Shown: positions 5,692 to 49,870 of the stretch, piece by piece
How positions within the stretch are numbered: position 1 is the stretch's first letter
How the letters are laid out: each line of letters opens with the position of its first letter
Source of the DNA: Streptomyces sp. NBC_00557
Lineage (GTDB): Bacteria; Actinomycetota; Actinomycetes; Streptomycetales; Streptomycetaceae
Direction of reading: 5' to 3'
DNA length: 64,000 nucleotides
NCBI RefSeq assembly: GCF_036345995.1
Contig: NZ_CP107796.1
Location: 5,580,001-5,644,000 of the forward strand
The notes under the pieces: model-generated
The model's database searches: none
The model's input: only the letters and a program-made list of their open reading frames with translations
What the model was told of the DNA's origin: nothing
Made by a program: the position numbers and the translations under genes

Positions 5692-5796
5692 CCGACCCCC
5701 TGCTGACGGCTGGCTCCGGGCCAGCCGGTTGTGCGTACGTATCCGTACGTGTCTGGCGTGATCTCTCTCGATCTTGCTGGGGCTGTCGGACACCGT

Positions 5797-16857: not shown

Positions 16858-16927
16858 GACCTGCCGGAGGGGAGTCCGCCGGACTATAGGCTGATCGATG
16901 GCGCGGGGCCGACGTCCGGAGGAGACC

Positions 16928-25201: not shown

Positions 25202-28200
25202 ATGTCTTCGGGCTTCGCAGTCGGGCACCTTGTCACGTTCACAGGAGCGCCCGGAATCGGCCGTGTGGGGGCGGTCGATGGTGGCACGCTGCGTGTCGAC
25301 TTCTTCGAGTCTGTCGCGGAGCCAGAAATTGAGTCGCATCCCGTTCCGGCTGCTGCTTGCAGGCGGGTACGCCTTGAGCGGCAGACTCGGGTGTTCCGAC
25401 ACAACCCGAGCACCGGGGAGTGGCTGGCCGGGCGCGTCGCGAATCGCGTTGGCGGTCAGTACTTTGTGCGGTTCCCCAACGTCGAGTTCGCCTTCCCTGT
25501 ACCCGAGTCGGAGCTCCGAGTGCGATGGGACAAGCCGGTTCGGGACCCGCTCCACGTCCTGGTGTCTGGGGGTAACGAGTCCGGCTTTCTCTACAACGCT
25601 CGCATCCCGATGTTGCGCAACCTCGTGGCCCAGCGTGCCGTCAGCGCCAGCACACCCGCACTCCTCGCCGCAGCCGCTGAGATCTATCCGCACCAGGTCC
25701 GCGCCGCGCTGGCCGTGCTCTCCGATCCCGTTCAGCGGTACCTCCTCGCTGACGAAGTCGGGCTCGGCAAGACCATCGAGGCCGGCTACGTGATCCTGCA
25801 GACCCTGATCGACAACCCGCAGGCACGTGTAGTCGTCGTCGCGCCCGACTCGCTGCGTCGTCAGTGGCAAGTGGAGTTGAAGTCGAAGTTCTTCACCGAC
25901 GACTTCCCGATGCGTGTAAGGATCACCTCCCACGAGACGCCTGAGAAGTGGGAGCAGTACCACCAGAGTGATCTTGTCGTGGTGGATGAGGCCCACCAGC
26001 TGGTCCAGGACCGCGACGACACGGACCCCACCTACCGCGCGCTGTGCGACCTCGCACACTCTGCGTCCAAACTCCTGCTGCTGTCCGCCACACCTGTCAC
26101 GTCCAGCCACACCACGCACCTGGGCCTACTACACCTCCTCGACAAGGACGTGTACAAGTGGAGCGAGCGCGAGGCGTTCGAACAGCGATACAACCACCGG
26201 GCGGAGTTGGCTACTCACCTCTACAGCCTCAGCGCGGAGTTCCACCTGCTGCTGCCCTCCTCGATCGACATGATCATGGAGTTGCTCCCCCAAGAAGACA
26301 CCCGCTTCGACGACCTTGCAGCCCGAGTCCTCGAACTCGTCGACGCTGAGGGCAACCTCTGTGCCGAGACGGACATGGAGGATCTCTCCGCGCGGGTCAC
26401 GGCACTTCAAGCGCACATCAGCGAGACCTACCGGCTGCACCGCCGTGTCATCAGGCACCGCCGAACAGGCGTATTGCTGGACGACGAGGACTCGGCACTG
26501 TTCCCTTACGAGGTGCGAGGCCGAACAGAGCCGTCGCCCCTGGCAGTCGAGTCATACGACCCGGCCGCAGACAGTCTCGTGGAGTGGCAGACGCAATTGT
26601 GGGGGTATCTCCTCGACGAGGGGCTTGAGGACAACCGTGACGCCTATGCCCTCGTCCTCGCTGTGCTCGCCTCCCGTCTCGGAGGCACGTCCGCAGACTA
26701 CATCGATGCACTTCGGTGGCGCGTTCATCGGGACGAGGACGCTGCTCTTCGGGCTGGTCTGAGCCCCCGGGAGCGGCACCACCTCAGCGCGCCGTCAGTA
26801 GCGCCTCTCGAACTGAAGATCCTCGAAGGTCTCGAAGAGCAGATCACCGACGACCGCCATGCCGCCGAGATCAACGAACTCGTCGACGCCCTTCTGCGGG
26901 CACTGCGTAGGGGTGGACGCGTCATCATCTTCTGCGGCCCCGGCGCCCTCGCCTCAATGCTTAGCGAGCGACTCAGCGAACGGTTCCGTCAGGTCGACTT
27001 CTTTGAGCACACTCGCCGTGTAGGCGCCGAGAAGTCCGAAGCTGCCATCGCCGAGTGGCGACAGCAGACCGCGAAATGTGCCGTGCTGGTCGCTGACGAT
27101 ACGGCTGAGGACGGCCTCAACCTTCAAGCCGCCAACACCGTGATCCACGTACGCCTGCCATGGTCGCCCAACCAACTCGAGCAACGTCTCGGCCGAACCG
27201 ACCGCTACGTCGAGTCACACCAGCAGCGCCGGCCTCCCGAGCAGTTCGTGGTCACGGACGCCGAAGCCCACTCGGGGGCGTGGCTGTCGCTGCTCAGCAA
27301 CGGCTACCGTATCTTCGCCGACTCGGTGTCCACGCTTCAGGACGCGATCGCGCAGGGCCTCGCCGGGGTCTGGGCTGAGGCGCTGGAGCATGGGCCCGAG
27401 GGCCTGACGGACTCCGCGGACGCGGTCCAGGCCCAACTCGCCGATGCTCGCGCTGAAATCGACCACATGGACATGCTCGAGTCGGTCTTCGAGATGTCTC
27501 CTGGCGGAGACCAGTTCGCCGAGCGGCTCGGTGCATTCGAGGCTGACTGGGAGGAGACTCGCGCAGCCATGCTGGGGTACACCGGCCAGGATGGCTCAAG
27601 CGGCGTTCAACTCCGTCACAGCGAACCAAGTGCCAATCGTGATGCCTTCGAGATCACGCAGAAGACCCTCATCTCCCCACACCTCTACGATCGCGACCAG
27701 CTCACGGACGAGATGGGCCGGGGTACGTTCAACAGGAATGAGGCTCTCAAGGCCGCCGGCACACGGCTGTTCCGCATCGGGAACCCGCTTGTCGACACAC
27801 TCGCGAACGTCGTCTGGTACGACGACCGCGGCCAGGCCACAGCCTTCTGGCGGGCAGACCGGGACCACAAGGGGGAACCCGAACCTTACTTCGGGTTCGA
27901 CTATCTCGTCGAAGCCGATACCGAACTGGCGCTAGAACTGGCCCTGCAGATCCCGCACGTACAAAAGCGCGCTGAAGCGGAAGCAGCCCTCAGGCGCCAG
28001 GCCGACCAACTGCTCCCGCCCTTCACGTTGAAGGTATGGGTGCCGGCAGGCTCCACCCAGGCCCTCAGCGACGAGAGCACCCGCGAATGGTTGGACGCCC
28101 CCTACGGGGCTACGGACCACAACTACAACTCGAAACTGATTCACGAGTTGCTGGATCTCTTCGACGGACGTCCCGGGTACGAAGCCTCTGCGCGAGCTGC

Positions 28201-28477
28201 CGAGCAGGTCGCCCGGGCCGAACTCGAACGGGTTACCAACCTCGCTGACCGATGCGCCCAGGCACAGGAGAAGGGGCGCGAGCGTCTCGCCGTCGCCAAA
28301 GCTCAAGCAGAGGCCCGACACGCAGCAGGTCGTCTTCTTGGCGACCGCGAGAGCTACCTGCTGGACGTGGACGTGACCGAGGCGCTGGTGAAGGGGCTTA
28401 GCCACCCCAAGGTCCGGCTCGTGTCCGCCACCTGCGTGCTGAAGACGGGACTCCGGAGGGTCCGTCGTGGCGACTGA
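25202..28477 (+). CDS. dpdE: DpdE-like SNF2/RapA-type helicase
   Basis: 1091 residues. A superfamily-2 helicase core of the SNF2/RapA kind: Walker A DEVGLGKT at 184-191, DEAH at 262-265, motif III LLLSATPV, and a second RecA domain with DDTAEDGLNLQAANTV and NQLEQRLGRTDRY. The N-terminal ~110 residues are beta-rich and resemble a small SH3-like or DNA-binding module. A long Glu/Ala helical region follows the helicase. In Dpd islands DpdE belongs to the set linked to restriction of DNA lacking 7-deazapurines. First gene of an eight-gene operon; its stop overlaps dpdF by 11 bases. Confidence 0.8.
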   Translation: MSSGFAVGHLVTFTGAPGIGRVGAVDGGTLRVDFFESVAEPEIESHPVPAAACRRVRLERQTRVFRHNPSTGEWLAGRVANRVGGQYFVRFPNVEFAFPVPESELRVRWDKPVRDPLHVLVSGGNESGFLYNARIPMLRNLVAQRAVSASTPALLAAAAEIYPHQVRAALAVLSDPVQRYLLADEVGLGKTIEAGYVILQTLIDNPQARVVVVAPDSLRRQWQVELKSKFFTDDFPMRVRITSHETPEKWEQYHQSDLVVVDEAHQLVQDRDDTDPTYRALCDLAHSASKLLLLSATPVTSSHTTHLGLLHLLDKDVYKWSEREAFEQRYNHRAELATHLYSLSAEFHLLLPSSIDMIMELLPQEDTRFDDLAARVLELVDAEGNLCAETDMEDLSARVTALQAHISETYRLHRRVIRHRRTGVLLDDEDSALFPYEVRGRTEPSPLAVESYDPAADSLVEWQTQLWGYLLDEGLEDNRDAYALVLAVLASRLGGTSADYIDALRWRVHRDEDAALRAGLSPRERHHLSAPSVAPLELKILEGLEEQITDDRHAAEINELVDALLRALRRGGRVIIFCGPGALASMLSERLSERFRQVDFFEHTRRVGAEKSEAAIAEWRQQTAKCAVLVADDTAEDGLNLQAANTVIHVRLPWSPNQLEQRLGRTDRYVESHQQRRPPEQFVVTDAEAHSGAWLSLLSNGYRIFADSVSTLQDAIAQGLAGVWAEALEHGPEGLTDSADAVQAQLADARAEIDHMDMLESVFEMSPGGDQFAERLGAFEADWEETRAAMLGYTGQDGSSGVQLRHSEPSANRDAFEITQKTLISPHLYDRDQLTDEMGRGTFNRNEALKAAGTRLFRIGNPLVDTLANVVWYDDRGQATAFWRADRDHKGEPEPYFGFDYLVEADTELALELALQIPHVQKRAEAEAALRRQADQLLPPFTLKVWVPAGSTQALSDESTREWLDAPYGATDHNYNSKLIHELLDLFDGRPGYEASARAAEQVARAELERVTNLADRCAQAQEKGRERLAVAKAQAEARHAAGRLLGDRESYLLDVDVTEALVKGLSHPKVRLVSATCVLKTGLRRVRRGD

Positions 28478-31049
28478 TAACTGGACGGGTGCCGCCGTCC
28501 TGCTGAAGGACTTGTCGACGCTTCCAGAACTCCCGCATGCGCGGGGGACGCTGCGTAGACTCCGCGACGCCTTGATGAGCCAGTCCGTCGGGTGGCGAGA
28601 CATTGCTTCGCTGACGCGGCAGATCCTCCTTGAAGCTCGGGCCCGTGAGAACACCACCGGCTTGACGGTGCCGCTCGATCCGAGGCTTCCCACCCGGGAG
28701 CAGTGGGACAAGATGCACTGCCAGACCGGGTTGGTCGGTGGCGGCACGCATCTGTGGCTCACCGCGACGCCGTGGCATCCGCCTGTCCGTGATGACGTGG
28801 CCCGCAAAGCAGCCGAGGAGGACCTCCGTCAGGTCTACCTCGGGGAGGACTCACCCCACCGGCGGAAGTTGGAGTCGTACCCTGCAGATCCCTTCTTCAC
28901 GGCCGCGCTGGGTGACGATCACGACCGTTATGTGTCGGTCGGACAGCGACAGGCAGCCAGGGCCGTGGCGCTGGCTGAACCGGGGAGCACCACGATCATC
29001 TGCCTTCCCACAGGGCACGGAAAGACCGCGGTGGCCATGGCGCCTGCGCTCCTGGCGAGCGTGAGCAGCGGCGTATCCGTGGTCGTCGTGCCCACCAGTG
29101 TCCTGGCAGCAGATCTGGAACGGCGCGCCAGCGAAATCATCGAACGGCAAGGCCACCACAGCCCCACGCGCCGGTACGCCTACACCAGTGGGCTGTCGGC
29201 CGATGAGCGACAGCAGATGAAGGAGGACATCGCTGCGGGGCGCCAGCGTCTGGTATTCACCTCACCCGAGTCCCTTGTGCGAAGCCTGAAAAAACCGTTG
29301 GAGACGGCCGCTGCGGCTGGCCTGTTCAAGTACTTCGTGATCGATGAAGCGCACCTCGTCGAACAGTGGGGCAACAGCTTCCGTACCGAGTTCCAAACGA
29401 TGTCGAGTCATCGTCGCACGTGGCTCAGCAGAGCCCCCGACGGGCAGAAGCCCGTCACTGTGGCGATGAGTGCGACTCTCACAGCGCAGCAGGTGGAAAC
29501 GCTTGACACACTCTTCGCCTCCCCGCAGAAGGCGAGAATCGTTTGGGCTGCGCAACTGCGCCACGAGCCGAGTTATTACGTCGATGTATGCCGGAATGAG
29601 CAGGAACGCGAGGCTGCAGTCATCGACGCTGTTTCGTTCCTGCCGAAGCCGATGATCGTGTACACCACGAAAGTGGAGCACGCGGAAGAATGGGTCGAAC
29701 GCCTCCGAGAGCATGGATTCCGCCGAGTAACCCATGTGACGGGCGACTCCAGCGACGCTGAGCGTCGTGAAGCCTTGGAAGGCTGGAGCGGCAATACAGC
29801 AGACGGCAAGACCAACACTCGATACGACATCGTGGTGGGTACTGCGGCGTTCGGCCTGGGTGTCGACCTCAACGACGTGAAGACGGTCGTCCACGCCTGC
29901 TTGCCTGAAACAGTGGACCGGTACTACCAGGAGGTCGGCCGGACAGGTCGCGACGGCAACCCATCAATCGCCTACCTGGCAAGCACACGTGGTGACGAAG
30001 CCATCGCCGACTACATGAGCAATGAGGTGATCATCGGAGCCCCGCGTGCTTGGCAGCGATGGGAAGCCATGTTTCATGATAGGACCCCGATCGAAAACCG
30101 CCACCGGGTCAGCCTTGACTCGTACCCGCCGGACATGAACGAGGGATTTGACCGGAATCGCTCATGGAACATTCGTATCCTGAATCTGATGGTGAGAGCC
30201 GGTCTCGTAGCTGTCCACCCGCCGCAGTCGCCAACCAGAGGCGAGGACGAATCCGACGTCCATTGGAAAGCGCGCCTTGAACACTTCCACGCAACGGCCA
30301 ATGATTACGCGGACGTCGAACTTCTCGGCTCTGACTCACGGAGTAGGGATCACTTCTACACGCGGTTTGACGCGGAACGCCAAAAGCTACTGCAGGATCG
30401 GGCAGCGTCACTGCGGGAGCTGAAATCGGCGCTGGTAGGAAATCGGTGCATCGGCGAGGTACTGGGCGCCTACTACCGTATCCCCGATGGGGCAGGCCAA
30501 CTTCGTACGGGCATTACCTGCCGGGGCTGCCCTCACTGTCGGGCAACAGTAGATCCCATGCCCAGCGGCTTCTACCGACTCGCCGGCGAACCTCGTCCCC
30601 TTGTGCCCATGCCGGAACGGCAAGGGCGCCTGCCTCTGCTGCGGTACTTCGGAGCCCGACGGTGCCTGAGCATCTGGTGGCAGGACGCTGGCGACCAGGT
30701 GCTCGCTGCCCGTCTGGTGGACAGCCTTATCCGCCGGGGAATCGCCGTAGTAGGAGGCCCAGGGCTGGACGCTCGCCTGAGGGCCCAACTGCAGACTACG
30801 GCACGGACTCGTACCGTGATCGTTGACGACGACGGTGCCCTTCTCGCGGACTGGCATGGTCCAGTCATCTGGATGACCGACCCCAACGCAGTGTCTCCCG
30901 GACCGGAGGTGGCTGCTCGTGTCGCGTGGGATGCACCGACTTACCTCATCCACCCGCGGACCCTGCATCACCCAGAGCGCCGAGGTACGCCACTTATCGA
31001 CATCCATCCGGCGAACCTGTCGATCCGCCGTGCCTTGGAGGAACTCTGA
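28467..31049 (+). CDS. dpdF: DpdF-like RecQ-type DNA helicase
   Basis: 860 residues, GTG start with GGAGG upstream. RecQ-like core: a Q-motif glutamine near 160, Walker A PTGHGKT at 181-187, DEAH at 293-296, AMSATLTAQQ, and motif VI YYQEVGRTGRDGNPS. A C-terminal CxxCPHC zinc cluster (CRGCPHC) and a separate last ~200-residue domain follow. The N-terminal 150 residues are an accessory domain not found in ordinary RecQ. It would unwind or translocate on target DNA as part of the restriction arm. Stop and next start overlap (TGATG). Confidence 0.8.
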   Translation: MATDNWTGAAVLLKDLSTLPELPHARGTLRRLRDALMSQSVGWRDIASLTRQILLEARARENTTGLTVPLDPRLPTREQWDKMHCQTGLVGGGTHLWLTATPWHPPVRDDVARKAAEEDLRQVYLGEDSPHRRKLESYPADPFFTAALGDDHDRYVSVGQRQAARAVALAEPGSTTIICLPTGHGKTAVAMAPALLASVSSGVSVVVVPTSVLAADLERRASEIIERQGHHSPTRRYAYTSGLSADERQQMKEDIAAGRQRLVFTSPESLVRSLKKPLETAAAAGLFKYFVIDEAHLVEQWGNSFRTEFQTMSSHRRTWLSRAPDGQKPVTVAMSATLTAQQVETLDTLFASPQKARIVWAAQLRHEPSYYVDVCRNEQEREAAVIDAVSFLPKPMIVYTTKVEHAEEWVERLREHGFRRVTHVTGDSSDAERREALEGWSGNTADGKTNTRYDIVVGTAAFGLGVDLNDVKTVVHACLPETVDRYYQEVGRTGRDGNPSIAYLASTRGDEAIADYMSNEVIIGAPRAWQRWEAMFHDRTPIENRHRVSLDSYPPDMNEGFDRNRSWNIRILNLMVRAGLVAVHPPQSPTRGEDESDVHWKARLEHFHATANDYADVELLGSDSRSRDHFYTRFDAERQKLLQDRAASLRELKSALVGNRCIGEVLGAYYRIPDGAGQLRTGITCRGCPHCRATVDPMPSGFYRLAGEPRPLVPMPERQGRLPLLRYFGARRCLSIWWQDAGDQVLAARLVDSLIRRGIAVVGGPGLDARLRAQLQTTARTRTVIVDDDGALLADWHGPVIWMTDPNAVSPGPEVAARVAWDAPTYLIHPRTLHHPERRGTPLIDIHPANLSIRRALEEL

Positions 31050-31975
31050 TGACTCTTCTGAACGTGGATGCAGCTCTTCCCTCTCAGACATGGGCGCTAG
31101 TGCGCCTCCTCGTCTACTTGGGGAAGAGCATCGCCCTGGACGAGGCCCGGGCCTTGGTGAGCCCTCCTGCTTTGCGTTCTGATGACATCAAGTCGAGGGC
31201 GCCCTTTGACAGCGCCGTCAGTTCGCTCGTGGACCTGGGGCTGGTGCACGTAGACGAGGAGCATCAGGAATTGTCTCTTGCGGGCCAAGCCACGGCTCTG
31301 ACCAACTGCGACGATCTTGATACCTACACCTGCATCCTCCGGCGCGCGATCCTCGCAGCAGACCGCAATCGCGGTCTGGGGGATGACAACGATCCGGCTG
31401 GGCCCCGTGACCTGACGCGTGCGCTCGCCTGGTTCCTCATGCACGACCCGATGGAACCACCCGTCGATTGGATCGCCGCGCAGCGCCTAGAGCAGGATGG
31501 GAAGGACCACAGGTTGCTCAAGCCGGAAGTGCAGCCCATCTTCGTCAACGCGACCCGGTGGACCCGTTTTGGTTATTGGGCCCCCGCCCTTGGTCTCGCT
31601 GCAGCCCCGCTCATTCGTGCTGAGGGTAGTGGCCCTCTGGTTCCCGACTGCACGACGGCTGTAAAGCAGACGGCAACCGGATTGTGGCAAGCGGGGCAGC
31701 GAATGAACGCCGTGGAGGTATTGCAGGTGCTGCGAGAGCACCTGCCTGTGCTACCCGGCGGTGCGCACTCGCTTGCGTTGGGCATTCCTAGTCCTGGCGA
31801 GAATGCGGCAGGCGCCGCGCTCTCGTTCGCGCTGTTGCGCGGCCACGACGAGAAGTGGCTTCGCCTGGAGCACGACGATGATGCCCGGCACATCCTTCTC
31901 GTGCACGACCCAGACCGGCCGGCCAGCCCCCGCCCCGTCAGCGACATCACCATCCTGGAGGCCACCCGTGGCTGA
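31049..31975 (+). CDS. dpdG: DpdG-like protein
   Basis: 308 residues. The N-terminal part looks like a winged-helix (WALVRLLVYLGKSIALDEAR, then PFDSAVSSLVDLGLVHVDEE), which suggests DNA or protein binding. The rest is mixed helix and strand without a motif I recognise. Identity rests on position between DpdF- and DpdH-like genes in a Dpd operon. The ATG at 31049 overlaps the dpdF stop, and its own stop overlaps the dpdH GTG. Confidence 0.65.
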   Translation: MTLLNVDAALPSQTWALVRLLVYLGKSIALDEARALVSPPALRSDDIKSRAPFDSAVSSLVDLGLVHVDEEHQELSLAGQATALTNCDDLDTYTCILRRAILAADRNRGLGDDNDPAGPRDLTRALAWFLMHDPMEPPVDWIAAQRLEQDGKDHRLLKPEVQPIFVNATRWTRFGYWAPALGLAAAPLIRAEGSGPLVPDCTTAVKQTATGLWQAGQRMNAVEVLQVLREHLPVLPGGAHSLALGIPSPGENAAGAALSFALLRGHDEKWLRLEHDDDARHILLVHDPDRPASPRPVSDITILEATRG

Positions 31976-34900
31976 CTTCCGCGGAATGATCTGTTGGGAA
32001 CCGGCAGTGGCAGCCTCCACGATCAACACGGAGGCGGTCAGCCCGTCAAGAGCAGTTTTCCTGGCGACGCACGCTCCATTGAGGATTAAGCGCGCACGAA
32101 TCATGGGCGGGAGAGAACTCGTCCTCGAAGGCGACCCGATCAGCGAACAAGAGGTCTTTGAAGAGTTCCTGGCGCTCCGACCGGACAGCGGTGCCTTGCT
32201 CATGCCGATCGTCGGTGACTCAGGCTCGGGCAAGTCGCATCTCGTCCGATGGGTGCGGGAACAGTTTGCTGCGATGGAGGACGGGGCAGACGATCGGGAG
32301 ATCATCTACCTCGAGAAGTCCAAGACAAGTCTCAAAGCTGTCGTTAGCACTCTCCTCGCGAAGGCAGAGAGCGACGAGTTGACGCAGCTGAAACAGGACA
32401 TCAACAGGTTCACCGAGGACATCGACGAAGACTCCCTTGCGCGGCGGATCCTCAACGAGTTGAGCGAGGCGCTGGAAGCAACCCCTCCCAGCACGGAGTC
32501 GCGCCCTCTAGCCCGCATGCTGGTCGGTCCGGGGAAACTGGCAGCAGTGCTGCTGGACCCCCATGTTCGCGCAGAGTTGCTTGCTCCGGGTAAGTTCGTA
32601 CCGGAACTTGCCCGCCAACTCATTCACAATCGTGACACGGGCCAGGCGGATCGCCCTGAAGGATTCACTGTCAGTGACCTCCCGCTCGACATTCACGATA
32701 TTCGATCAGCGTCAGGGATGGCGCAGAGGCTGCTGGGCACCATAAGCACCCGAGGCGACCTTCAAGCCATCGCGGTAGACCTACTCAACCGGCATCTCGA
32801 AGCCGCCATCAAGAGCGCCGCTAACCTCGGAGCGGGCAGGCTTCTGGATGCCATGAAGCAGGTGCGAGAGGCATACCGCCGGCAGGGCAAAGAGATCATT
32901 CTTCTGATCGAAGATTTCGCCCTGATCCAAGGCGTGCAACGGGACCTGCTCGACGCTGTCGTAGAAGCGGCCAACCGTGAGGGAGAGACGACTCTCGCGC
33001 CAATCCGCACCCTGATGGCCGTAACCACAGGCTACTTCCAGTCCTTGCCGGAAACAGCCTTGACCCGCCTCCAAGCGGCCACCGGCTACGTGTACCACCT
33101 GGATGTTCCCTTCAGCCCAGAGGAGACGGGACGCACAGAGATCGCCGCGTTCGTCGGCCGCTACCTGAACGCGGGCCGTGTCGGCCGTGAAGCCCTGGAG
33201 CGCGCCAACGAAGAGACTCCGAACAAGTGCATGACTTGCCCTCTCCAGACAGAGTGCCACGAGGCCTTCGGCGCCACCTCTGATGGCTACGGTCTGTATC
33301 CCTTCAACGAGTCGTCTTTGGTCAGGGCTGTTCATGCAACAGCCCCGAAGGACAAGCCTTGGACCTTCAATCCCCGCGCCGTTCTGGGTAGCGTCGTCCG
33401 GCCAGTTCTGAAGGAGCACGCCGGCGCCATTCGGCGCGGCGAATTCCCCGATCCTGACTTCCGGCAGCGTTTCAGGCCAACCAGCCTCGACAATCCGCTC
33501 AGCCGGCAGGTACGTACCTTCGTAGAGGAGAACGACCACGATCCTGCATCCGCTGAGCGGCGCAACCTCGTGCTCGAATTTTGGGGGGACGCCCCCGAGC
33601 ACGCCGGCAGCGTCCATCCCACGATTCTGGAAGCCTTCTCCCTTGAGCCGCTGGCTGATGAAGGCCAGCAAGGCCTCTCGCCGGCTTCTACTTCCTTCCC
33701 TGAGCAGTCACGTAGCGGCATGCACAGGGTTGAGGCGAAGGAGACGGCAGAACGGAACGAACTTCCGAGGGAACTCCAGCGAATGCTGGAGACGGTGGAC
33801 GAGTGGCTCACCCGCGAGGGGGGTCTGGACACAGCGACCGCCAATCGGATCCGCAGTGTTGTCTCAAGTGCGGTGGTGCAGAGGTATCTGTGGAACTCTC
33901 CGCTGATGCGGGAGCAGGCTCTCACCGAGATCAGGAGGGCAGCCTGGCCGGCCAAGGCAACGGTCGTGTCCATCGAGGGCGCGCGGGAGAACTTGACGGG
34001 TGTAGAGAACGCGCCCATCACCTTCTCGCGCTTGCCGAAGGACAGTTGGTTCTTCGACAGCTTGCTGAAGGCCGAGCGGAGCCTGCCGGCGAGGGCCGAA
34101 GACATCCGCAGGTTGGCCACGCTGGCAGACAAGCACAGGCCCGACCTCACCGCTCGGCTGCAGCGTCATATGGAAATCACCGACGACCACCTGGTTGCCG
34201 GCTTCCGGGCCTCGCTCATCGGCGCAGCCTTGGCGGGCAAGGCGTGGCCGGGAATGCCCAAACCGCTCCTCATCGCAGCCGCCCTGGACGATGGCCAGGA
34301 GTGGCGTCGTGAGGACCACTCCATCCGCGTCACTAGGTGGATGGACGTCCTCTCGATGCACCTCAAGGCGCGCCCGGAACTTGTGAAGCAACTGCGACAC
34401 GCCGTCGGCATCGCGCAAGGCGTCGGCTCGGTCACCATGGTCGACGCTGCACGCATCCTCCCCCTGCTCGACGAGGCAACGTCTTCCTGGGACTGGGATC
34501 CTGAGGGACTTGAGATCGCGAAGTGGGTCCGACCGGCGGTCAACGGCTTTGCAACCTGGCCAGACATGCTCGACGACCAGGTCACGCACCACGAAGAGTT
34601 GCTCGACTCGATCCGGAGCCGCCAACCACGCGGGACCACCGGCGTCCAGACCATGGCTGGGATTCGGGATGCGCTCAGTGCCGCGCGAGAGGTCGGCCTG
34701 CCGCTGACCGCCGAGCAAGCACGCCAATTCGACGCGCTCATTCAGGCATGCCAGGACGCCGACTGGAAGTCCATCTCCGCGCTCGAGGACGACCTGGCTA
34801 AAGCGAGCGACGACAGCCGTGATCCTGCTGCACAGCAGGACGCCCGAGTAGTTGCGGCGGTCAAGGATCGCGGCACCTCACTCAAGACGATTCAGCAGCT

Positions 34901-40248: not shown

Positions 40249-40763
40249 CAGAACTGACCAGAACGCTACGCACAGGCGCCAAGACGGGCTTGAGCGTCGA
40301 CTCAATGCTGGCCGCAGCATTGATGGCGGAGATGATCAATCCGAGCAGGGAACTGTGGCTCGTCTCTCCCTGGATCACGGATGTGCGAGTGATCGACAAC
40401 CGGCACGGCAGCTTCGACGCGCTGTTCGGCGATGTACCGCCCAGTAGTTGGCGGCTGTCCGACGCACTTCTGCGGATCGCCGGTGCTGGATCCCACGTCT
40501 ACATCATCACTAGACCCGATTCTCACAACGAGGCGTTTCTCCGGCGGATCGAGGCTGCGGAACTCGACACGGTGCACGTGCGGCGTGATGCCGATGTCCA
40601 TGAGAAAACGCTGTGCGGGCAGGAGTGGTTGCTCACCGGATCGATGAACTACACGGTCCGAGGCATGGCGAAGAATGATGAGTCGGTCACCTACAAGGTG
40701 GGCGGGCCGGATGCCGGCCAGGCGCGGCTGGACCTGGCCCGGCGGTGGAGGAGTGGCGCATGA
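40245..40763 (+). CDS. dpdK: DpdK-like phospholipase-D-superfamily protein
   Basis: 172 residues. A single HKD-type motif lies near residue 122: HEK, then TLCGQEWLLTGSMNYT, where the final acidic residue is Glu rather than the usual Asp. Two such protomers would pair to make a nuclease active site, making this the best nuclease candidate of the restriction arm. The N-terminus (ELWLVSPWITDVRVIDN) is the usual PLD first strand. A DpdJ-DpdK pair parallels the helicase plus PLD pairs in other defence systems. Confidence 0.75.
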   Translation: MTELTRTLRTGAKTGLSVDSMLAAALMAEMINPSRELWLVSPWITDVRVIDNRHGSFDALFGDVPPSSWRLSDALLRIAGAGSHVYIITRPDSHNEAFLRRIEAAELDTVHVRRDADVHEKTLCGQEWLLTGSMNYTVRGMAKNDESVTYKVGGPDAGQARLDLARRWRSGA

Positions 40764-42796: not shown

Positions 42797-42797
42797 A

Positions 42798-42844
42798 GTG
42801 ACCGATGGCCTCCCCCATCAAGAGTGGGGGAGGCCATCGGTCAC
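42798..42844. terminator. bidirectional terminator between converging dpd operons
   Basis: A perfect 20-bp inverted repeat (left arm 42798-42817, right arm 42825-42844) with a 7-base loop. It starts one base after the dpdD stop codon and ends 19 bases from the dpdB stop codon, so it serves both operons. The stem centre is CCTCCCCCA/TGGGGGAGG. Confidence 0.85.
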
Positions 42845-42862
42845 TGACTTGCCCTGATGCTG

Positions 42863-43957
42863 CTACCTGCGAGCGAAGGGCTTCAGGTAATCCTTGAGGA
42901 GACGTAGATCAGAGGGCGTGTTCTGCAAGCCGTTCCACTTGCGTTCTTCATCGGCGAACCTCCACGTCCCGGATGTCCAGGCCACATGGGGCTCCAGTTC
43001 CGCAAGAGTCTTGCGGACCTTCTTCCAATTAACCTTGTCCACCGGAATTTCAGCAGTGAGCTCGTCCATGACGAAGCCCATCGCTTGGATGCCGACGCCA
43101 TGCGTAAGCCGGGAGTCCTTCGGGCCGAGCCTCCAGGCATCCGGGAACACGTCCCTTACCAGTCCCCAGTACTCGCACAGATGCTCAAGCATCTTGTCCG
43201 GGTCACCCGAGCCGTCCTCGTTGCGGTACTGGTAGAGCGCACCTTCGTAGAGGCTGTACTCAAGCATCTTGAGGACACTGTTGTCCTTGATGTCGCCCAA
43301 GGGAGACGTAGGACTCTGAATCCGGCCGAAGAAGGCACTGTGGCCGTCTGTATTGAGGCGGATCATAAGGCGAGCTGGGAGCTGGCGACGAGCGTACGAA
43401 GGCGGTAGGTGACCGCTGGTGTCCGGCAGCAGTTCGTTCACCAGACCCTTGGGAAGCGGCTTGGTTGAGTTGACCAGGATGAACTGGGACCGCTGCTCTT
43501 CTTGCCCATCGGCGATGAAGCCCACAGCAGCGACGGGGAACTCTGCAAGGTTCGCGTCCCGGATGGCGGCGCTGCGCTGCTGGCCGTCTACGAGCCAGGC
43601 TGGTTTCTCATCCTCCGACTGGGTCTCGTCGACAGGGATGACGAGCTCGCCGGGTACGGAGTAGTCAACGTCCTTGGCCGGCCTACCGGGTACGAACTCA
43701 ACCCGCTTGTCGAAGGCGAGGACCAGGGCGTTGGGGAGCATCGCCCCGTCAGACTCCAAGTAGCGGCGGATCGCCTTGATGTGGCTGAGGACCTCCGGTC
43801 GCTGGTAGCCCTGCAGTCGCTGCTCATCATCCCGGCTGATACGCGAGACTGCGGTGAAGTCGTGCAGCTTCTTGCCGTCGACAGCAAAGCAGAAGATCTC
43901 TCGACTGCCTTGGCGTACGAGTAGGGCTGGGAGTCGCAACGTGTATCGGTCGGCCAC
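42863..43957 (-). CDS. dpdB: DpdB-like DGQQR protein, paralogue 1
   Basis: 364 residues. ParB/sulfiredoxin-like ATPase domain with the hallmark WLVDGQQRSAAIRDA near residue 125. Upstream is the conserved RISRDDEQRLQGYQRPEVLS; the C-terminal part has LTHGVGIQAMGFVMDELTAE. DpdB works with DpdA to insert preQ0 into DNA at the cost of ATP. This is the last gene of the minus-strand operon, 48 bases after dpdA. A second, clearly related dpdB lies upstream of dpdA, so this copy may be a partner subunit or a specialised version. Confidence 0.8.
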   Translation of the reverse strand: MADRYTLRLPALLVRQGSREIFCFAVDGKKLHDFTAVSRISRDDEQRLQGYQRPEVLSHIKAIRRYLESDGAMLPNALVLAFDKRVEFVPGRPAKDVDYSVPGELVIPVDETQSEDEKPAWLVDGQQRSAAIRDANLAEFPVAAVGFIADGQEEQRSQFILVNSTKPLPKGLVNELLPDTSGHLPPSYARRQLPARLMIRLNTDGHSAFFGRIQSPTSPLGDIKDNSVLKMLEYSLYEGALYQYRNEDGSGDPDKMLEHLCEYWGLVRDVFPDAWRLGPKDSRLTHGVGIQAMGFVMDELTAEIPVDKVNWKKVRKTLAELEPHVAWTSGTWRFADEERKWNGLQNTPSDLRLLKDYLKPFARR

Positions 43958-44005
43958 ATCATCTCCTAGGCGGACAATTGGTAGATAGCGGATGGGTGCG
44001 GGTCG

Positions 44006-45259
44006 TCATGCGAGCTGTGTGTCTGCAGCAGCGGCTGGCCGCCGAAATCGCAGATCCCGCATCTTGGCTTCGAGGACGGTCATGTTGTGGAAGCCTCGTC
44101 GCTTGTTGCGTTCAGTACCACGGAAGATCACTATCTCGATGCCTAGGTCTTTGCAGAGGTCACAAGGGCAGTCGTCCCATGGCCGTTCGTCCAAGGTCTT
44201 CCTGTAGTGCTTGCTGTACTTCTCCTTCTTCTTCTCGTCGACGATCGTCAGGTAGGCCTCCAATGCTGCCACGGCCTCGTCTAGCTTCACCTGCTTCTTG
44301 TCGTAGGCGCGGAGAGCCCGCAGGCACTCTCGCTCTGCCTTGATCGCTGCCGCTTGAGAGACCTGCCCGGCGAGGATCAGCCGTTTCAGGGTTGGGTTCC
44401 CGTCGACTTGCGGGACTCTGATCGCTGTGTAAGTTCCCTTGTCAGTGTGGTAGTTGTTGCGCTCGTCCATGAAGGCCTGACGGAACGCGGACGTGCTGTC
44501 GAAGCTGGTCACACCGCGGTCCCAGAACTCCTCCATGCTGGCGATCCGCGTGATCCCCAGCAGGTGTAGCTCGGTCCCCTCGTGGCGTACTTCCTTGATC
44601 TTGTCAAGGCAGGCGATGATCTCGTGGGACTTGAGCGGAACCATGCCGCCGAGCGCGATGCGCTTGTATCCCATGTCCTGCAGTCGAGCCACGCTGTCTG
44701 CGTAGCTCGCGGGACTCCATCCTTGCGCGGCTCCGAGCGGCTGGAGTTTGCTCCTGCGGGCTTCAAGCTCGGCGAGGAATTTTTCAGCAAGATCAAGTGA
44801 AATGTGGCGCCGCTTGACCCATGCAGGGTCCACGTCTCGCTCGGAAGCCTCGGGCTTATAGCCGAAGATCACATGGTCGATGCTCACGCCCTCGTCAAAC
44901 TGACACTTCTCATAGAATTCAATGACTTGCTCAACCGTGTACGGAGGCTCTTCCAGGTCAATGTAGTTGAACGCGCCGCAGTCGCCGAGGCTGGACATTC
45001 CCTCAGGGAGACGGAAGAATTCTCGAACCCCATCTCGATAGAGTCGATACCTTTGCCTATCGCTGTATTTTCCAGCGCCCTTCACGGAGCCGTCGACAAT
45101 TGCTTTGCTGACCAGGATCCCCTCGTATGGGATCGGATGCACGACCTGGTGAGCGTATTTATCGTCGCGCTGCCGGACACGGTGGGTGGGATATTCCTCG
45201 TCGATAAAGTCATAGGTCGGACTGACCTGATCTTGACTGTCCGGGAAGTAGAACTTCAC
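44006..45259 (-). CDS. dpdA: DpdA, TGT-like DNA 7-deazaguanine transglycosylase
   Basis: 417 residues, GTG start overlapping the dpdB stop upstream. A tRNA-guanine transglycosylase paralogue that exchanges guanine in DNA for preQ0. The two TGT-type aspartates are visible: D93 in SSLGDCGAFNYI and D254 in TSFDSTSAFR. Between them is ARLQDMGYKRIALGGMVPLK. The zinc site is CPCDLC (C364, C366, C369) with H391 in RRGFHNMT. The first 50 residues and the C-terminal helical extension differ from tRNA enzymes, as expected of DpdA. It is the key gene that identifies the island. Confidence 0.9.
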   Translation of the reverse strand: MKFYFPDSQDQVSPTYDFIDEEYPTHRVRQRDDKYAHQVVHPIPYEGILVSKAIVDGSVKGAGKYSDRQRYRLYRDGVREFFRLPEGMSSLGDCGAFNYIDLEEPPYTVEQVIEFYEKCQFDEGVSIDHVIFGYKPEASERDVDPAWVKRRHISLDLAEKFLAELEARRSKLQPLGAAQGWSPASYADSVARLQDMGYKRIALGGMVPLKSHEIIACLDKIKEVRHEGTELHLLGITRIASMEEFWDRGVTSFDSTSAFRQAFMDERNNYHTDKGTYTAIRVPQVDGNPTLKRLILAGQVSQAAAIKAERECLRALRAYDKKQVKLDEAVAALEAYLTIVDEKKKEKYSKHYRKTLDERPWDDCPCDLCKDLGIEIVIFRGTERNKRRGFHNMTVLEAKMRDLRFRRPAAAADTQLA

Positions 45260-46398
45260 GACGCGCTCATCCTCGACTGAAGGTAGATTCGGATCAAAAG
45301 GTTGGACAGGGTGCTGATATGGCGGGGAGTGTTCTGGAGTTCATTCCAGGGGATGTTGAGCTCTGGCCAGCGACCCTTGGTCCAATGGCAGTAGGGCTTA
45401 ACCAACGCCAGTTCCGCCATGGCCCTGTTGTAAGCGTCCTTTGATCCGATGTCCGCCGCCCCAAGAACGCGGTCCATTATCCGATCCATGAGGCGTCCCA
45501 TTGATCGAATTCCGACACCATGCATGAGTCGGCTCCGAGCGGGCGAGAGTCCCCACGCATCCGGGAAGGTGTCTCTTACGGCTGTCCAGTAGACGACGAG
45601 GATATCCCTCATCGCTGCCGTGTCGGTGGTTCCGTTGGAGAGGTTCTTGTATGGAAACAGAACCCCTGAGGGAGAGAGCGACTCTTCAATAGCCGAGATG
45701 AGGCTGTTGTCCTTGACGACTGCCTCGGACTTCCTCTCGCCTGCTGTTGACGCCTGCTTGATCAGCCCTCTGAACGGTGAATCACTGTCCTGGTTCAGGG
45801 CGTTGACGAGCGCAGAGGGAAGCTTCCGAGCGGATAGCTTGGTGGGGAGTTTGGTATTGACCTCGGGCAGGAGTTCAGACACCAGGTTAGTGGGAAGGGG
45901 GGACACGGTGTTGACGCGGAGGAACTGGTCGCGTTGGACTTCGAGGTCTTCAGCAACGAAGCCGGCAATGGCGATTGGGAGCTTCGATCGCTTGGTACGC
46001 GCGAGCGCGAGGCTTCGCTGCTGTCCGTCTACAATCAAGGCGGGGCGAGGTGCTTCGTCAGATTCCGGTAGCGGGATCTCGATAGTCCCGATTGTCGCCA
46101 ACCCGTCGGTGCTGTTGGGCCCTCGGCTGCCTTTGAACCGGACCGAGGAGGGAAGGGCGAGGATGAGGCCGTTCGGGAAGAGGACGTTTTCACTGTCAAG
46201 GTAGTCGAGGATCTGCTTGACGTGCTGCTTCTTCTCGGGCCGCTGATAGCCAAGCAGTTTCCCTGCCTCGTCGCGGGAGATCCGTGCGACGTCGGCAACA
46301 CGGTCTACCTCTCCGGCCTGCAGGGCGAAGAGGTAGAGGGGAATGTCTGGATTCTGCTCGATACGCAGTGCTCTGCGCCGGATCGGGTTCTCCGTCAC
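45256..46398 (-). CDS. dpdB: DpdB-like DGQQR protein, paralogue 2
   Basis: 380 residues with the same layout as the copy downstream of dpdA: ARISRDEAGKLLGYQRPEKK near residue 40, ALIVDGQQRSLALART near 125, and SRLMHGVGIRSMGRLMDRIM toward the C-terminus. It keeps the ATPase DGQQR box, so both copies look active. It overlaps dpdC upstream and dpdA downstream by four bases each, the tightest coupling in the operon, and is therefore the likelier main partner of DpdA. Confidence 0.82.
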   Translation of the reverse strand: MTENPIRRRALRIEQNPDIPLYLFALQAGEVDRVADVARISRDEAGKLLGYQRPEKKQHVKQILDYLDSENVLFPNGLILALPSSVRFKGSRGPNSTDGLATIGTIEIPLPESDEAPRPALIVDGQQRSLALARTKRSKLPIAIAGFVAEDLEVQRDQFLRVNTVSPLPTNLVSELLPEVNTKLPTKLSARKLPSALVNALNQDSDSPFRGLIKQASTAGERKSEAVVKDNSLISAIEESLSPSGVLFPYKNLSNGTTDTAAMRDILVVYWTAVRDTFPDAWGLSPARSRLMHGVGIRSMGRLMDRIMDRVLGAADIGSKDAYNRAMAELALVKPYCHWTKGRWPELNIPWNELQNTPRHISTLSNLLIRIYLQSRMSAS

Positions 46399-47285
46399 GA
46401 CTGCCCCACGGTCTTGATGTATAGGTTGGCGAAGCGGCTCTGTTCGCAGGCCCGGCCCTCAGCTCGGAGCTGGCGCAAGAGGCGTGTCCGCGAGATCCCC
46501 GGCTGGGATGCGGTTTGCTGTCGGACGAATGTGATTATCTCGTCATCGGTCATCGGCTTGCGGTTGTGCTGCTCGGGCCTCGATTCGCTAGCCGCCCACT
46601 TCTTCCAGGAGTCGCTGGTAGCTGGCGAGGTGAGTTGACCGTCCTCGCAGTGCTGGAGCCATGACGCGGCCATGCGCACGTTCAGGCTCGTCAGTGTTCC
46701 GCCCAGGGCATGTCTGAGTCCTGCATCGGCCGGGACTCTTTGGATGCCGGGGATCTCTTCGACGCCGCCGACGAGGAGTGCCTCACTCGCAACCGCGGCC
46801 AGGGCACGCAGTTCTTCTCCCATAGCTTTCGCATAAACCTCGGAGAGCACCATGAGGACGGGGCCGTTCTTGCCGAGCTCCTGCAGCGTTGCGCGGCCCG
46901 TTCCCTCTTGGAGACGGCCCCACCATTGAGCACTGCCTGCCGCGGAGGTAGCCACCGAGTCTGCGTGTCGGGTACTGAAGGTCGCCGCGTACGAGGGAGC
47001 TGACGCAGATACCGGCTGAAGACCGAGGCCGGCGGATGCTACCCAGAGGTCGGCGGCGAATCCTGCCTTGGAGGCCGTATCAACCAGACGGCGCGCCTGC
47101 GCCCAGTGGTCGCCGCGATAGAGCTCGGCGAGTGCGTGCGTGTGGGAGGCACCCTTAACGCGCTCAGCCCAGAGCGCAGCGCGCTCTTTCACAGACCCGC
47201 TCGGGAGCGACCTCGCATGCAGTGCATCCTCTGGCGCCGCAGCCTTGCGGTCTGTGCACGTGACTACCAGCGTTAGTTGCCTCAC
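46395..47285 (-). CDS. dpdC: DpdC-like protein
   Basis: 296 residues, GTG start. The N-terminal ~190 residues begin LTLVVTCTDRKAAAPEDALH and include WVASAGLGLQPVSASAPSYA and VLMVLSEVYAKAMGEELRAL, a fold pattern like YaaA/DUF6884-type proteins. A linker leads to a small C-terminal winged-helix-like domain (ISRTRLLRQLRAEGRACEQS). In the Salmonella system DpdC is needed to convert inserted preQ0 to the amide form ADG. First gene of the minus-strand dpd operon; a TATACT -10-like hexamer lies at 47305-47310 on that strand. The name is from position plus the domain impression. Confidence 0.6.
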   Translation of the reverse strand: MRQLTLVVTCTDRKAAAPEDALHARSLPSGSVKERAALWAERVKGASHTHALAELYRGDHWAQARRLVDTASKAGFAADLWVASAGLGLQPVSASAPSYAATFSTRHADSVATSAAGSAQWWGRLQEGTGRATLQELGKNGPVLMVLSEVYAKAMGEELRALAAVASEALLVGGVEEIPGIQRVPADAGLRHALGGTLTSLNVRMAASWLQHCEDGQLTSPATSDSWKKWAASESRPEQHNRKPMTDDEIITFVRQQTASQPGISRTRLLRQLRAEGRACEQSRFANLYIKTVGQS

Positions 47286-47395
47286 GCGGCCCTGCTCCCC
47301 GACGAGTATAACTGGAAGGTTGTTGCCGTTACTCTACCTGCCAGTTTTCACGCTAGTGTTCAGCTGTACACGTGAGGGCTAACTAGGGAGCAGGC
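47286..47395. promoter_or_regulatory. divergent promoter region, dpdC / queC
   Basis: 110 bases shared by the minus-strand modification operon and the plus-strand preQ0 operon, AT-richer than the flanking genes (47305-47370). TATACT on the minus strand (47305-47310) could be the dpdC -10 box. AGGGAGCAGGC directly precedes the queC ATG. Shared control would match precursor supply to DNA modification. Confidence 0.45.
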
Positions 47396-48106
47396 ATGGC
47401 GGAGCGTCCCGCGATCGTTCTACTGAGTGGCGGGCTGGACTCGACGACTGTTCTGGCGATCGCCAAGGACCAGGGCTACACGCCGTACGCGCTGAGCTTC
47501 CGCTACGGCCAGCGGCACAGTGTGGAGCTTGAGGCCGCGAAGCGCGTGGCTGCGGCGCAGGGGGTCGCACGTCATGTGATCGCGGACATCGACCTGCGGG
47601 TTTTCGGTGGCTCGGCGCTCACGTCGGACATCGAGGTTCCGAAGCACGAGTCTCTGGACGCCGCTGACGACAAGGGCATCGACAGCAGCGTGCCCATCAC
47701 CTACGTTCCGGCACGCAACACGATCTTCCTGTCTTTCGCGCTGGCGTACGCGGAGACGGTCGGGGCGAGCGACATCTTCACGGGCGTGACCGCCGTCGAC
47801 TACAGCGGCTACCCGGACTGCCGACCCGAATACATGGAGGCCTACGAGCGCATGGCCAACCTGGCCACCCGCGCCGGGGTCGAGGGCACGCAGAAGCTCA
47901 AGCTGCACTCCCCGCTCATCTCCATGTCGAAGGCCGACATCGTCCGTGAGGGCCTGCGCCTCGGTGTCGACTACTCCCTGACGTCCTCGTGCTACGACCC
48001 GGACGATCAGGGACGAGCCTGTGGGCACTGCGAAACCTGCCTGCTTCGCCTCAAGGGATTCGCGGAAGCCGGCGTCACCGATCCCGTGCAGTACCAGGGC
48101 GCGTGA
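47396..48106 (+). CDS. queC: 7-cyano-7-deazaguanine (preQ0) synthase
   Basis: 236 residues, full family length. QueC turns 7-carboxy-7-deazaguanine and ammonia into preQ0 with ATP. The PP-loop SGGLDST is at residues 11-17, and the four-cysteine zinc site is [17 protein letters not shown] near the C-terminus. [20 protein letters not shown] is the typical middle block. First gene of the plus-strand preQ0 operon, three bases before queE. Confidence 0.95.
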
Positions 48107-48108
48107 GA

Positions 48109-48744
48109 ATGACCTACCTGGTCAAGGAGATCTTCTACACCCTGCAAGGTGAAGGGAGTCACGCAGGCCGTCCGGCTGTCTTCTGCCGCTTCTCCAGGTG
48201 CAACCTGTGGACGGGCCTGGAGAAGGATCGGCACCGTGCGATCTGCCAGTTCTGCGACACAGATTTCGTCGGAACTGACGGAGAGGGTGGCGGCAAGTTT
48301 CGGACCCCGGACGACCTCGCTCAGGCGGTCGAAAAGGCGTGGCCGTCGGCATCTAGGGAGCACCGCTTCGTGGTGTGCACGGGCGGAGAACCGCTTCTGC
48401 AACTCGATGAAGAAGCGATCGATGCCTTTCATGCACGCGGCTTCGAGGTGGCAGTCGAGACGAACGGCACGCGTGTGCCGCCCAAGGGCATCGACTGGCT
48501 CTGCGTGAGCCCCAAGATCGGCTCTGAGCTGGTCGTGACCAGCGGAGACGAACTGAAGTTGGTCTACCCCCAGTTGGGAGGTGACCCACGTCAGTTCGAG
48601 CAGTTGGACTTCCGGTACTTCCGCCTCCAGCCCATGGACAACCCTGACGTTGAGGCCAACACCAGGGCGACGGTCGAGTACTGCATGAAGAACCCGCGCT
48701 GGACCCTCTCTCTCCAGACGCACAAGTATCTGGGAATTCAGTAA
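48109..48744 (+). CDS. queE: 7-carboxy-7-deazaguanine synthase
   Basis: 211 residues. Radical-SAM enzyme that contracts 6-carboxytetrahydropterin to 7-carboxy-7-deazaguanine. The cluster-binding site is the Cys-x14-Cys-x2-Cys variant of one QueE subfamily (CNLW...AICQFC). [14 protein letters not shown] starts the fold and [12 protein letters not shown] is the SAM-binding GGE motif. I chose the ATG at 48109; a GTG two codons earlier (48103) overlaps the queC stop and is possible. Its stop overlaps the queD start. Confidence 0.93.
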
Positions 48745-49100
48745 TGGAAATCTTTCGCGAGTTCACGTTCGAAGCCGCGCACCGTCTGCCCAACGTTCCT
48801 GAGGGACACAAGTGTGCGCGCCTCCACGGCCACTCTTACAAGGTCATCGTCCACGTAGAGGCACCCGTCGACCCTGAGGCGGGTTGGGTCATGGACTTCG
48901 GGGACCTCAAGAAGGCGTTCAAGCCCATCGAAGCCCGACTCGATCACTACTACCTCAACGACATCGAGGGTCTGGACAACCCGACCAGCGAGGTCCTCGC
49001 CCGCTGGATCTGGGATCGGTTGAAGCCGGCGCTGCCCGACCTCTCTGCACTCACCGTCCGCGAAACGTGCACGTCCGGCTGCACTTATCGGGGCGAGTGA
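48744..49100 (+). CDS. queD: 6-carboxytetrahydropterin synthase
   Basis: 118 residues, standard size. Converts 7,8-dihydroneopterin triphosphate to 6-carboxytetrahydropterin. Zinc histidines H13, H28 and H30 and the catalytic cysteine C24 lie in [20 protein letters not shown]; the family's LDH motif follows ([10 protein letters not shown]). TAATG overlap with queE, so it is co-translated. Confidence 0.95.
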
Positions 49101-49102
49101 CC

Positions 49103-49870
49103 ATGCACGACATCCAGAACGAGACCGATGCCCGAGGTATCGAGATCGACGACGTGGGCATCAGCGGGCTGCGGTACCCGCTGTACTTCGAGGACGGTCA
49201 CCTCCGCCAGGAGGGGATCGCCGAGATCGAAGTGACCGTGCGGCTCCAACACGACCGCCGCGGAACTCACATGAGCCGCATGGTGGCCTTCGCGCATGAG
49301 TACCTGCGCCGGTTCGATCCCCGCAAGCTGCCGTACCTCCTGAAGGTCGGGGCGGATCTCCTGGACGCGCCGGCGTTCGCAGTGGCGATCGATCTTCCCT
49401 TGAGTACGACAGTGGTGGCACCTGCTAGCGGTCAAGAGTCGCTACAGGTCCACGATGTTCGCTTCGAAGGCCGCTGGGACACCGGTGCCACCTCGGTGGT
49501 CACGTCCGTCACCACCGAGGTGACCAGCCTATGTCCGTGCTCGAAAGCTATCTCGGACTACGGTGCGCACAACCAGCGCAGCCAGGTCACTCTGTCCGTG
49601 ACGGGACACGGGGATACGCCTTACCCCTTCGGTGTGCAGGAGGCTGTCAGGCTTCTGGAGCGGTGCGCGTCCGCGCCGGTCGTTCCCTTGGTGAAGCGCC
49701 CCGATGAGCGAGTGCTGACGATGCAGGCGTACGACCACCCCATGTTCGTCGAGGACATGGTTCGGAAAGTCAGCTACGACTGCCGCGAGCGAGGTCTTCG
49801 CCACCGTGTGAAGGTCCGCAACCTGGAAAGCATCCATAGCCACGACGCCGTCGCTTACGTCACTGGATGA
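49103..49870 (+). CDS. folE2: GTP cyclohydrolase I type IB
   Basis: 255 residues. First step of the preQ0 pathway, GTP to dihydroneopterin triphosphate. It is the FolE2 (IB) type, shown by SLCPCSKAISDYGAHNQRSQ and AYDHPMFVEDMVRKVSYDCR, and not the common zinc FolE. The ATG at 49103 follows the queD stop; a GTG at 49097 overlapping that stop is an alternative. Having its own FolE2 makes the island independent of host folate-pathway control and gives a complete GTP-to-preQ0 route here. No queF is present, so preQ0 is the end product. Confidence 0.93.
   Translation: MHDIQNETDARGIEIDDVGISGLRYPLYFEDGHLRQEGIAEIEVTVRLQHDRRGTHMSRMVAFAHEYLRRFDPRKLPYLLKVGADLLDAPAFAVAIDLPLSTTVVAPASGQESLQVHDVRFEGRWDTGATSVVTSVTTEVTSLCPCSKAISDYGAHNQRSQVTLSVTGHGDTPYPFGVQEAVRLLERCASAPVVPLVKRPDERVLTMQAYDHPMFVEDMVRKVSYDCRERGLRHRVKVRNLESIHSHDAVAYVTG

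Follow-up and report, generated by a model that had tools for sequence, protein, structure and literature searches.

Dpd islands, which pair a DNA-modification module with a restriction module, were reportedly described from Salmonella Montevideo and Kineococcus radiotolerans by Thiaville in 2016. As far as the available text of that source goes, the GATOR-GC catalogue holds 333 unique actinobacterial dpd windows, in which dpdB leads in extra copies (801 across all phyla) and about 27% of the islands carry genes for 7-cyano-7-deazaguanine (preQ0) (PMC11888242). In the accessible portions of the literature covered, the restriction cluster is termed presumptive (PMC12707154), and neither the control of Dpd restriction nor the timing of cutting is described. 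Here, we analyzed a 64,000-nt stretch of Streptomyces sp. NBC_00557 (hereafter the window, or W in comparisons; its contig is G000:C1, and other G-numbers denote other genomes compared) and the Dpd island at its positions 25202-49870. We consider it likely, as judged from sequence, that this is a complete Dpd modification-restriction island whose restriction operon is raised on alarm and which is carried as replaceable prophage cargo.

The island comprises three operons with all frames intact, in the layout and on the strands that an initial annotation of the bare DNA letters had claimed: a rightward restriction operon (dpdE, F, G, H, a 228-aa open reading frame (ORF), J, K, and D), a leftward modification operon (dpdC, dpdB2, dpdA, and dpdB1), and a rightward preQ0 operon (queC, queE, queD, and folE2), with a 110-bp gap separating queC from the divergent dpdC. 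FolE2, QueD, QueE, and QueC make preQ0 by established family chemistry, and they would supply it here. As established in homologues, DpdA and its two DpdB partners would then swap guanine in DNA for preQ0, and DpdC would hydrolyze this preQ0 to 7-amido-7-deazaguanine (ADG). DpdD-K would restrict DNA without the mark. The strain's DNA would accordingly carry 7-deazaguanines and the strain may resist phages, as the initial annotation had supposed.

With the Salmonella Montevideo and Kineococcus radiotolerans islands, as described in the accessible parts of two sources (PMC11888242, PMC12839542), the window's island shares the dpdA-C and dpdD-K families, DpdI excepted, a likeness that rests on family models and descriptions rather than on a gene-by-gene comparison. 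Unlike these islands as described there, it has its own queC-queE-queD-folE2 operon, two dpdB genes flanking dpdA, a protein at the DpdI position that the DpdI model does not recognize, a RecA-NDp promoter on its restriction operon, and a location within a prophage. The island itself is, by its gene content, a Dpd member of the catalogued kind, and its double dpdB is the rule in our sample, the order B1-A-B2-C recurring in 27/27 relatives, and is not new in view of the extra dpdB copies catalogued (PMC11888242). What appears new relative to catalogued Dpd islands is the promoter, the modularity, and the prophage carriage; promoter control, module recombination, and carriage among prophage head genes are not described for actinobacterial islands in the available text of the GATOR-GC paper (PMC11888242). 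The enclosing prophage, the promoter of the restriction operon, and the earlier cataloguing of such islands (PMC11888242, in its accessible part) were absent from the initial annotation.

The comparisons of dpd loci draw on the window and 27 distinct relatives (from 28 loci, one a duplicate). These genomes are a related sample that includes near-identical pairs (G300/G441, 99% identical, and G485/S. stelliscabiei), and counts are not numbers of independent events. At E <= 1e-30, DpdA relatives occur in 22/392 genomes of the genus and 3/394 of the class, with the window's own genome counted in both.

The island lies within an integrated element bounded by exact copies of a 54-bp direct repeat. 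The left attachment site (attL; 3598..3651, no strand assigned) is at the 3' end of a tRNA-Met gene, and the right copy (attR) is at G000:C1:5681983-5682036, which is window-equivalent 101983-102036, 38 kb past the window end, there being no repeat inside the window alone. The copies are 98,385 bp apart, and their 20-nt core has only two places in the genome at one mismatch or fewer. The element encodes a tyrosine integrase (3793..5793, minus strand; Pfam Phage_integrase 4.5e-18, PHROG integrase 1.1e-58) and, on the plus strand, ParB (9343..10491; Pfam ParB_N 6.4e-27), the terminase large subunit (14038..15531; Pfam Terminase_6N 4.1e-15, PHROG 3.9e-24), the portal protein (16898..18679; PHROG portal 9.2e-24, 50% identical to ZL12 gp66), and the major capsid protein (20612..21661; Pfam Phage_cap_E 6.1e-37, PHROG major head protein 9.9e-62), together with neck, tape measure, distal tail, minor tail, and endolysin genes. 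The capsid is closest to that of Streptomyces phage ZL12 (50%) among 212 matching phage records, and the ZL12 genome (NC_013420, 90,435 bp) has the same order of terminase-portal-gp65-gp64-capsid-gp61-gp58-tape measure. Its virion genes, homologous to those of ZL12 and in the same order, and its att-bounded integration mark the element as a ZL12-like prophage. In ZL12, which has no dpd, only gp60 and gp59 stand between gp61 and gp58, whereas the window's prophage has 49 kb there, dpd included. The left edge of this cargo slot is the gp61 homologue (22026..22358, plus strand) and the right edge the gp58 homologue at window-equivalent 71601; an insertion-sequence transposase of the IS481 family (23511..24506, plus strand; Pfam rve, LZ_Tnp_IS481) separates dpd from the phage head genes. 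Directly after attR, a second integrase (window-equivalent 102180-103946) and a second ParB-like gene (about 107700) probably belong to a related element in tandem; a genome search at one mismatch or fewer gave no third att copy.

The gap between gp61 and gp58 is at least 14 kb in all six prophages in which both edges were found (W, G301, G324, G538, G559, and G660), compared with 1.4 kb in ZL12. A sibling prophage in G301, with a 98% identical capsid, the same att sequence, and a length of 66,671 bp, has a slot of 17 kb without dpd. PADLOC was applied to 10/56 slot ORFs from four prophages (five from G301, three from G538, one each from G330 and G324), and recovered PbeA, PbeC, and a methyltransferase in G301, LmuA and LmuB of Lamassu in G538, only a partial match of an ABC-transporter-like protein in G330, and nothing in G324; the phage head-gene slot thus also holds Pbe-like and Lamassu systems. 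The capsid family occurs in 49/392 genomes, and dpd was seen inside the prophage in three of these (W, G559, and G660), while G407 and G594 have capsid and dpd on different contigs. In the ZL12-like prophages of G559 (154,430 bp, with a 43-bp repeat at tRNA-Arg) and G660 (no att found), dpd sits between portal and gp65. Identity across nine phage proteins compared between the window and G660 is 39-67% (that of the terminase covering just 201 residues), versus 93% for DpdB2 and 97% for QueC, and dpd has therefore moved between phage backbones. The serS gene (60842-62158) is also prophage cargo, common to the G660 prophage (84%), and the DNA before serS and that near 63575-63872 both match a single stretch in G660, and likewise in G301.

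An alternative with nearly even prospects is that the prophage is a dead carrier in which dpd and about 24 kb of other cargo have disrupted the late operon, leaving dpd as a plain chromosomal island to which phage biology is irrelevant. The 49 kb of cargo does split head and neck genes, the element measures 98,385 bp against 66,671 bp in its G301 sibling, and an IS481 transposase stands at the edge. Against this, every virion gene examined in the window's prophage has an open frame, and most approach their ZL12 counterparts in length (the gp64 homologue is shorter, 159 vs 269 aa); furthermore, a slot of at least 14 kb is common to all six prophages in which both edges were found, and ZL12 itself reaches 90,435 bp.

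Not all dpd islands ride on such a prophage. In G450, a 32.7-kb segment with tRNA-Arg repeats of 48 bp encloses dpd, as does a 33.6-kb segment with tRNA-Ala repeats of 22 bp in G331. For most other relatives, the fetched DNA around dpd did not yield the capsid and terminase of the ZL12-like prophages, and prophage carriage is therefore one route among several. ZL12-like prophages, along with other elements integrated at tRNA genes, would carry the island as replaceable defense cargo, and prophage carriage is a possible route of spread for a 25-kb system. Separately, a dpd island in G497 (C134, about 21-27.5 kb) lies close to an integrase at a tRNA-Met of identical sequence, the interval being free of phage head genes, and may belong to a different element that uses this site.

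DpdE has no match among 50,697 phage records at 1e-10, while DpdA, DpdF, and DpdJ each match one record, the unverified fecal "Bacteriophage sp." scaffold MT835580.1 (37, 32, and 27%). IMG/VR scans for DpdA and DpdJ, which used short exact peptides and could detect close relatives only, were empty, and DpdJ occurs on 5/72,556 plasmid records at 1e-50. Among the literature matches listed, mostly open-access papers, no title or abstract places dpd in prophage head clusters or under PafBC control. In the accessible part of a survey of actinobacterial prophages, 37 defense systems are reported, in 10% of prophages, and Dpd is not named (PMC10023795).

Pairwise comparisons among the relatives revealed sharp breaks in protein identity at module borders. 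Between G300 and G367, modification and que genes are 97-100% identical and restriction proteins 30-52%, and the DNA is 98% identical over 7,082 bp beginning in the dpdD-dpdB1 gap. Similarly, G660 and G497 share DpdA, B1, B2, and C at 92-98% and the que genes and FolE2 at 89-97%, versus 44-63% for restriction, and G418 and G579 share modification at 91-100%, versus 26-35% for restriction. The pattern is reversed between G660 and G331, with restriction at 91-96%, DpdB2 at 78%, and DpdC at 66%. In the window, identity breaks between dpdB2 (93% to G660) and dpdA (70%). Trees of A+B1, B2+C, and J conflict, and 14/15 approximately unbiased (AU) tests reject the clades proposed from a different module (p 9e-4 to 2e-102, values that are descriptive since the clades were chosen after identities and trees had been seen). 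The one clade left unrejected groups the window with G567, S. oceani, and S. qinglanensis on A+B1 (p 0.27). In G445 (L055), where the restriction operon is of a different type and in inverted orientation, dpdB1 is adjoined by 38 codons of dpdD that share 79% identity with those of the window; we read this dpdD tail as a scar of restriction-operon replacement. That DpdA-DpdB1 is a specificity unit traveling with the restriction operon was considered and rejected, as G660 and G497 share both proteins (96-98%) but not the restriction operon. Because the two modules recombine, the comparison suggests that they communicate via the DNA mark rather than via dedicated protein contacts, and module exchange makes it possible to test whether recognition goes only through the mark.

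The restriction operon is preceded by a RecA-NDp/PafBC-type promoter, TTGTCAGTG-N8-TAAGCT (25137..25159, plus strand), which ends 42 nt before the dpdE start and matches 12/12 positions of the working RecA-NDp consensus, TTGTCRGTG-N8-TANNNT. With this consensus, the host genome has 41 exact matches versus none for the reversed pattern, and a protein with a PafC helix-turn-helix domain (97.4 bits) is encoded in it. As a positive control, the host recA is preceded by an exact site about 55 bp before its matched part. According to the accessible portions of the regulon literature, the RecA-NDp promoter is that of PafBC and is present in actinobacteria including Streptomyces (PMC6789036, PMC8223512, PMC5087735), and mycobacterial PafBC is activated by single-stranded DNA (PMC11804915). 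The dpdE pattern is the same as that before the host recA, and none of the papers listed in the literature searches was seen to place a Dpd restriction operon under such control.

The promoter comparison across loci covered the upstream regions of dpdE, dpdC, and queC. Among 22 dpdE regions, the match is 12/12 in eight, 11/12 in four, and 10/12 in two, all lying 56-85 bp ahead of the start codon. For dpdC, none of 28 loci exceeds 8/12 upstream, and for queC the best upstream match stays at 9/12 or below in 27/28, with a single 10/12 match at -219. A 700-bp search located an exact site at -619 in G579, in DNA shared with G418 and hence probably a legacy of the replaced operon, and in G367 a match of 11/12 at -498. 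Over 2,013,068 bp of dpd neighborhoods, 9/11 exact sites precede dpd restriction operons (one by 619 bp), and the reversed pattern has none. General control of dpdE by a LexA box was considered and rejected, with best matches of 7-8/10 within 700 bp in 21/22 loci. In G663, which lacks a RecA-NDp site, a perfect LexA-like box (CGAAC-N4-GTTCG, 10/10) occurs 410 bp before dpdE.

Several points weigh against an alarm-raised, prophage-borne island. The 12-position consensus is a working pattern rather than one quoted from a paper, and 8/22 dpdE regions have no proximal RecA-NDp site, namely the type-IV operons of G445, G579, G412, and G594, along with G663, G367, G760, and Geodermatophilus. The 14 positives include close relatives such as G300/G441 and are not 14 independent cases. 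The window's 98-kb prophage is far larger than its 66.7-kb sibling and may not be packaged. The eight regions without a proximal site also favor the alternative that Dpd is expressed constitutively and that the RecA-NDp sequence is a housekeeping promoter or a relic without damage control. We think this unlikely, though well worth bearing in mind: promoter and spacing persist in restriction operons with DpdE proteins that share only 47-72% identity with the one in the window, the exact sites in 2.01 Mb stand before dpd restriction operons in nine of 11 cases and before modification operons in none, and the host recA carries the same pattern.

Marking is probably constitutive, because the 110-bp gap between the modification and preQ0 operons has no damage promoter, and cutting is probably raised on alarm, since a RecA-NDp site heads the restriction operon. 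PafBC, probably responding to single-stranded DNA, would raise cutting when the genome is already marked. A damage-type promoter on the restriction operon alone is thus a simple and testable answer to how cutting is controlled. Tentatively, and with clearly less confidence than in the main reading, these features may combine into an alarm-gated Dpd, with constitutive marking, an interchangeable restriction arm that single-stranded DNA switches on via PafBC, and swappable carriage in the head-gene slots of ZL12-like temperate Streptomyces phages, in which case the phages' own DNA would also be marked.

Dpd is most likely the only pathway that the preQ0 genes serve, since no tRNA-guanine transglycosylase (TGT) was found in the host genome by a PF01702 search, which recovered that family in 14/14 control genomes; DpdA itself falls below the threshold of this search, so a very divergent TGT could escape it. 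All 27 distinct relatives have queC-queE-queD, and 26/28 loci, window included, have folE2. Although preQ0 is also a precursor in queuosine and secondary-metabolite pathways (PMC11888242, accessible part), it is highly improbable that these genes feed tRNA queuosine or a secondary metabolite and that DpdA is a tRNA enzyme, given the lack of a tRNA TGT hit in that search, the match of DpdA to PDB 7UI4 (7.4e-125) and to its own family (625 bits), and the que genes beside dpdC in 27/27 distinct relatives.

The gene assignments rest on NCBIfam equivalog scores judged against curated cut-offs, with Pfam and PADLOC families also scanned. On the plus strand, the restriction operon encodes the SNF2-like helicase DpdE (25202..28477; NF041062, 1166.9 bits, cut-off 500), the RecQ-like helicase DpdF (28467..31049; NF041063, 856 bits, cut-off 550), DpdG (31049..31975; NF041064, 103.6 bits, cut-off 80, scored from 30926), the AAA ATPase DpdH (31986..35063; NF041065, 1154.6 bits, cut-off 450, scored from 31761), the YprA-like helicase DpdJ (35746..40248; NF041067, 1855.7 bits, cut-off 800; family name after the accessible part of PMC12458937), the phospholipase D (PLD)-family protein DpdK with its HxK..GSxN motif (40245..40763; NF041068, 185 bits, cut-off 100), and DpdD (40760..42796; NF041061, 659 bits, cut-off 300). 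The helicase/ATPase/PLD operon in matching order that the initial annotation had proposed is thereby borne out, with DpdD-H, J, and K each above their curated cut-offs and the helicases assigned to DpdE, F, and J rather than to another defense system.

Between DpdH and DpdJ, the 228-aa all-helical protein (35063..35749, plus strand; AlphaFold predicted local distance difference test (pLDDT) 87.5) has no match in NCBIfam, Pfam, or PADLOC, and NF041066, the DpdI model of 239 positions, has no match in the host genome at E <= 0.001. A relative sits between H and J in 21/28 loci, window included; the four type-IV operons have a similarly sized ORF without detectable similarity at the DpdI position (at most 12 bits by hmmsearch, 0.5% by hhalign), and in the remaining three loci the fetched DNA ends short of the H-J interval. 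Foldseek returned nothing significant for the 228-aa model (best E 0.94), another fold search gave generic helical rows only, and the model of the type-IV counterpart is too poor for use (pLDDT 45.5). The 228-aa protein is thus a candidate DpdI by its place in the operon, and neither the family model nor the sequence and fold comparisons tied it to DpdI.

On the minus strand, the modification operon encodes DpdB1 (42863..43957; NF041060, 513 bits, cut-off 300), DpdA (44006..45259; NF041059, 625 bits, cut-off 200), DpdB2 (45256..46398; NF041060, 414 bits, cut-off 300), which is 39% identical to DpdB1, and DpdC (46395..47285; PADLOC DpdC 1.9e-124), which has no NCBIfam match at E <= 0.01. On the plus strand follow QueC (47396..48106; TIGR00364, 206 bits, cut-off 150), QueE (48109..48744; TIGR04508, 345 bits, cut-off 240, scored from 47989), QueD (48744..49100; TIGR03367, 115 bits, cut-off 89), and FolE2 (49103..49870; Pfam GCHY-1, 226 bits, cut-off 25, scored from 48884), the last slightly under its NCBIfam cut-off (206.3 vs 215, scored from the longer TTG start). 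The likely starts of DpdG (31049), DpdH (31986), DpdD (40760), QueE (48109), and FolE2 (49103) are not those of the longest ORFs. The intact queC, queE, queD, and folE2 and the DpdC-like protein of the initial annotation hold up as open frames of recognized families, and the hidden Markov model searches against Dpd families that it had proposed are passed in NCBIfam by every dpd protein except DpdC and the 228-aa ORF.

Its view of DpdA as TGT-like, with both aspartates and the zinc site, likewise agrees with the family scores, as DpdA reaches 625 bits in its own family but 21.1 (cut-off 26.3) in that of tRNA TGTs. Residues 1-400 of DpdA align with the solved DNA-guanine transglycosylase 7UI4, and Asp93 and Asp254, which we take to be catalytic, and Cys364, Cys366, and Cys369 (CxCxxC) and His391, presumably the zinc ligands, as in the TGT family, are each kept in 28/28 aligned proteins. 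Both DpdB proteins, each over the NF041060 cut-off, carry the expected DGQQR motif, which for each is kept in 28/28 aligned proteins.

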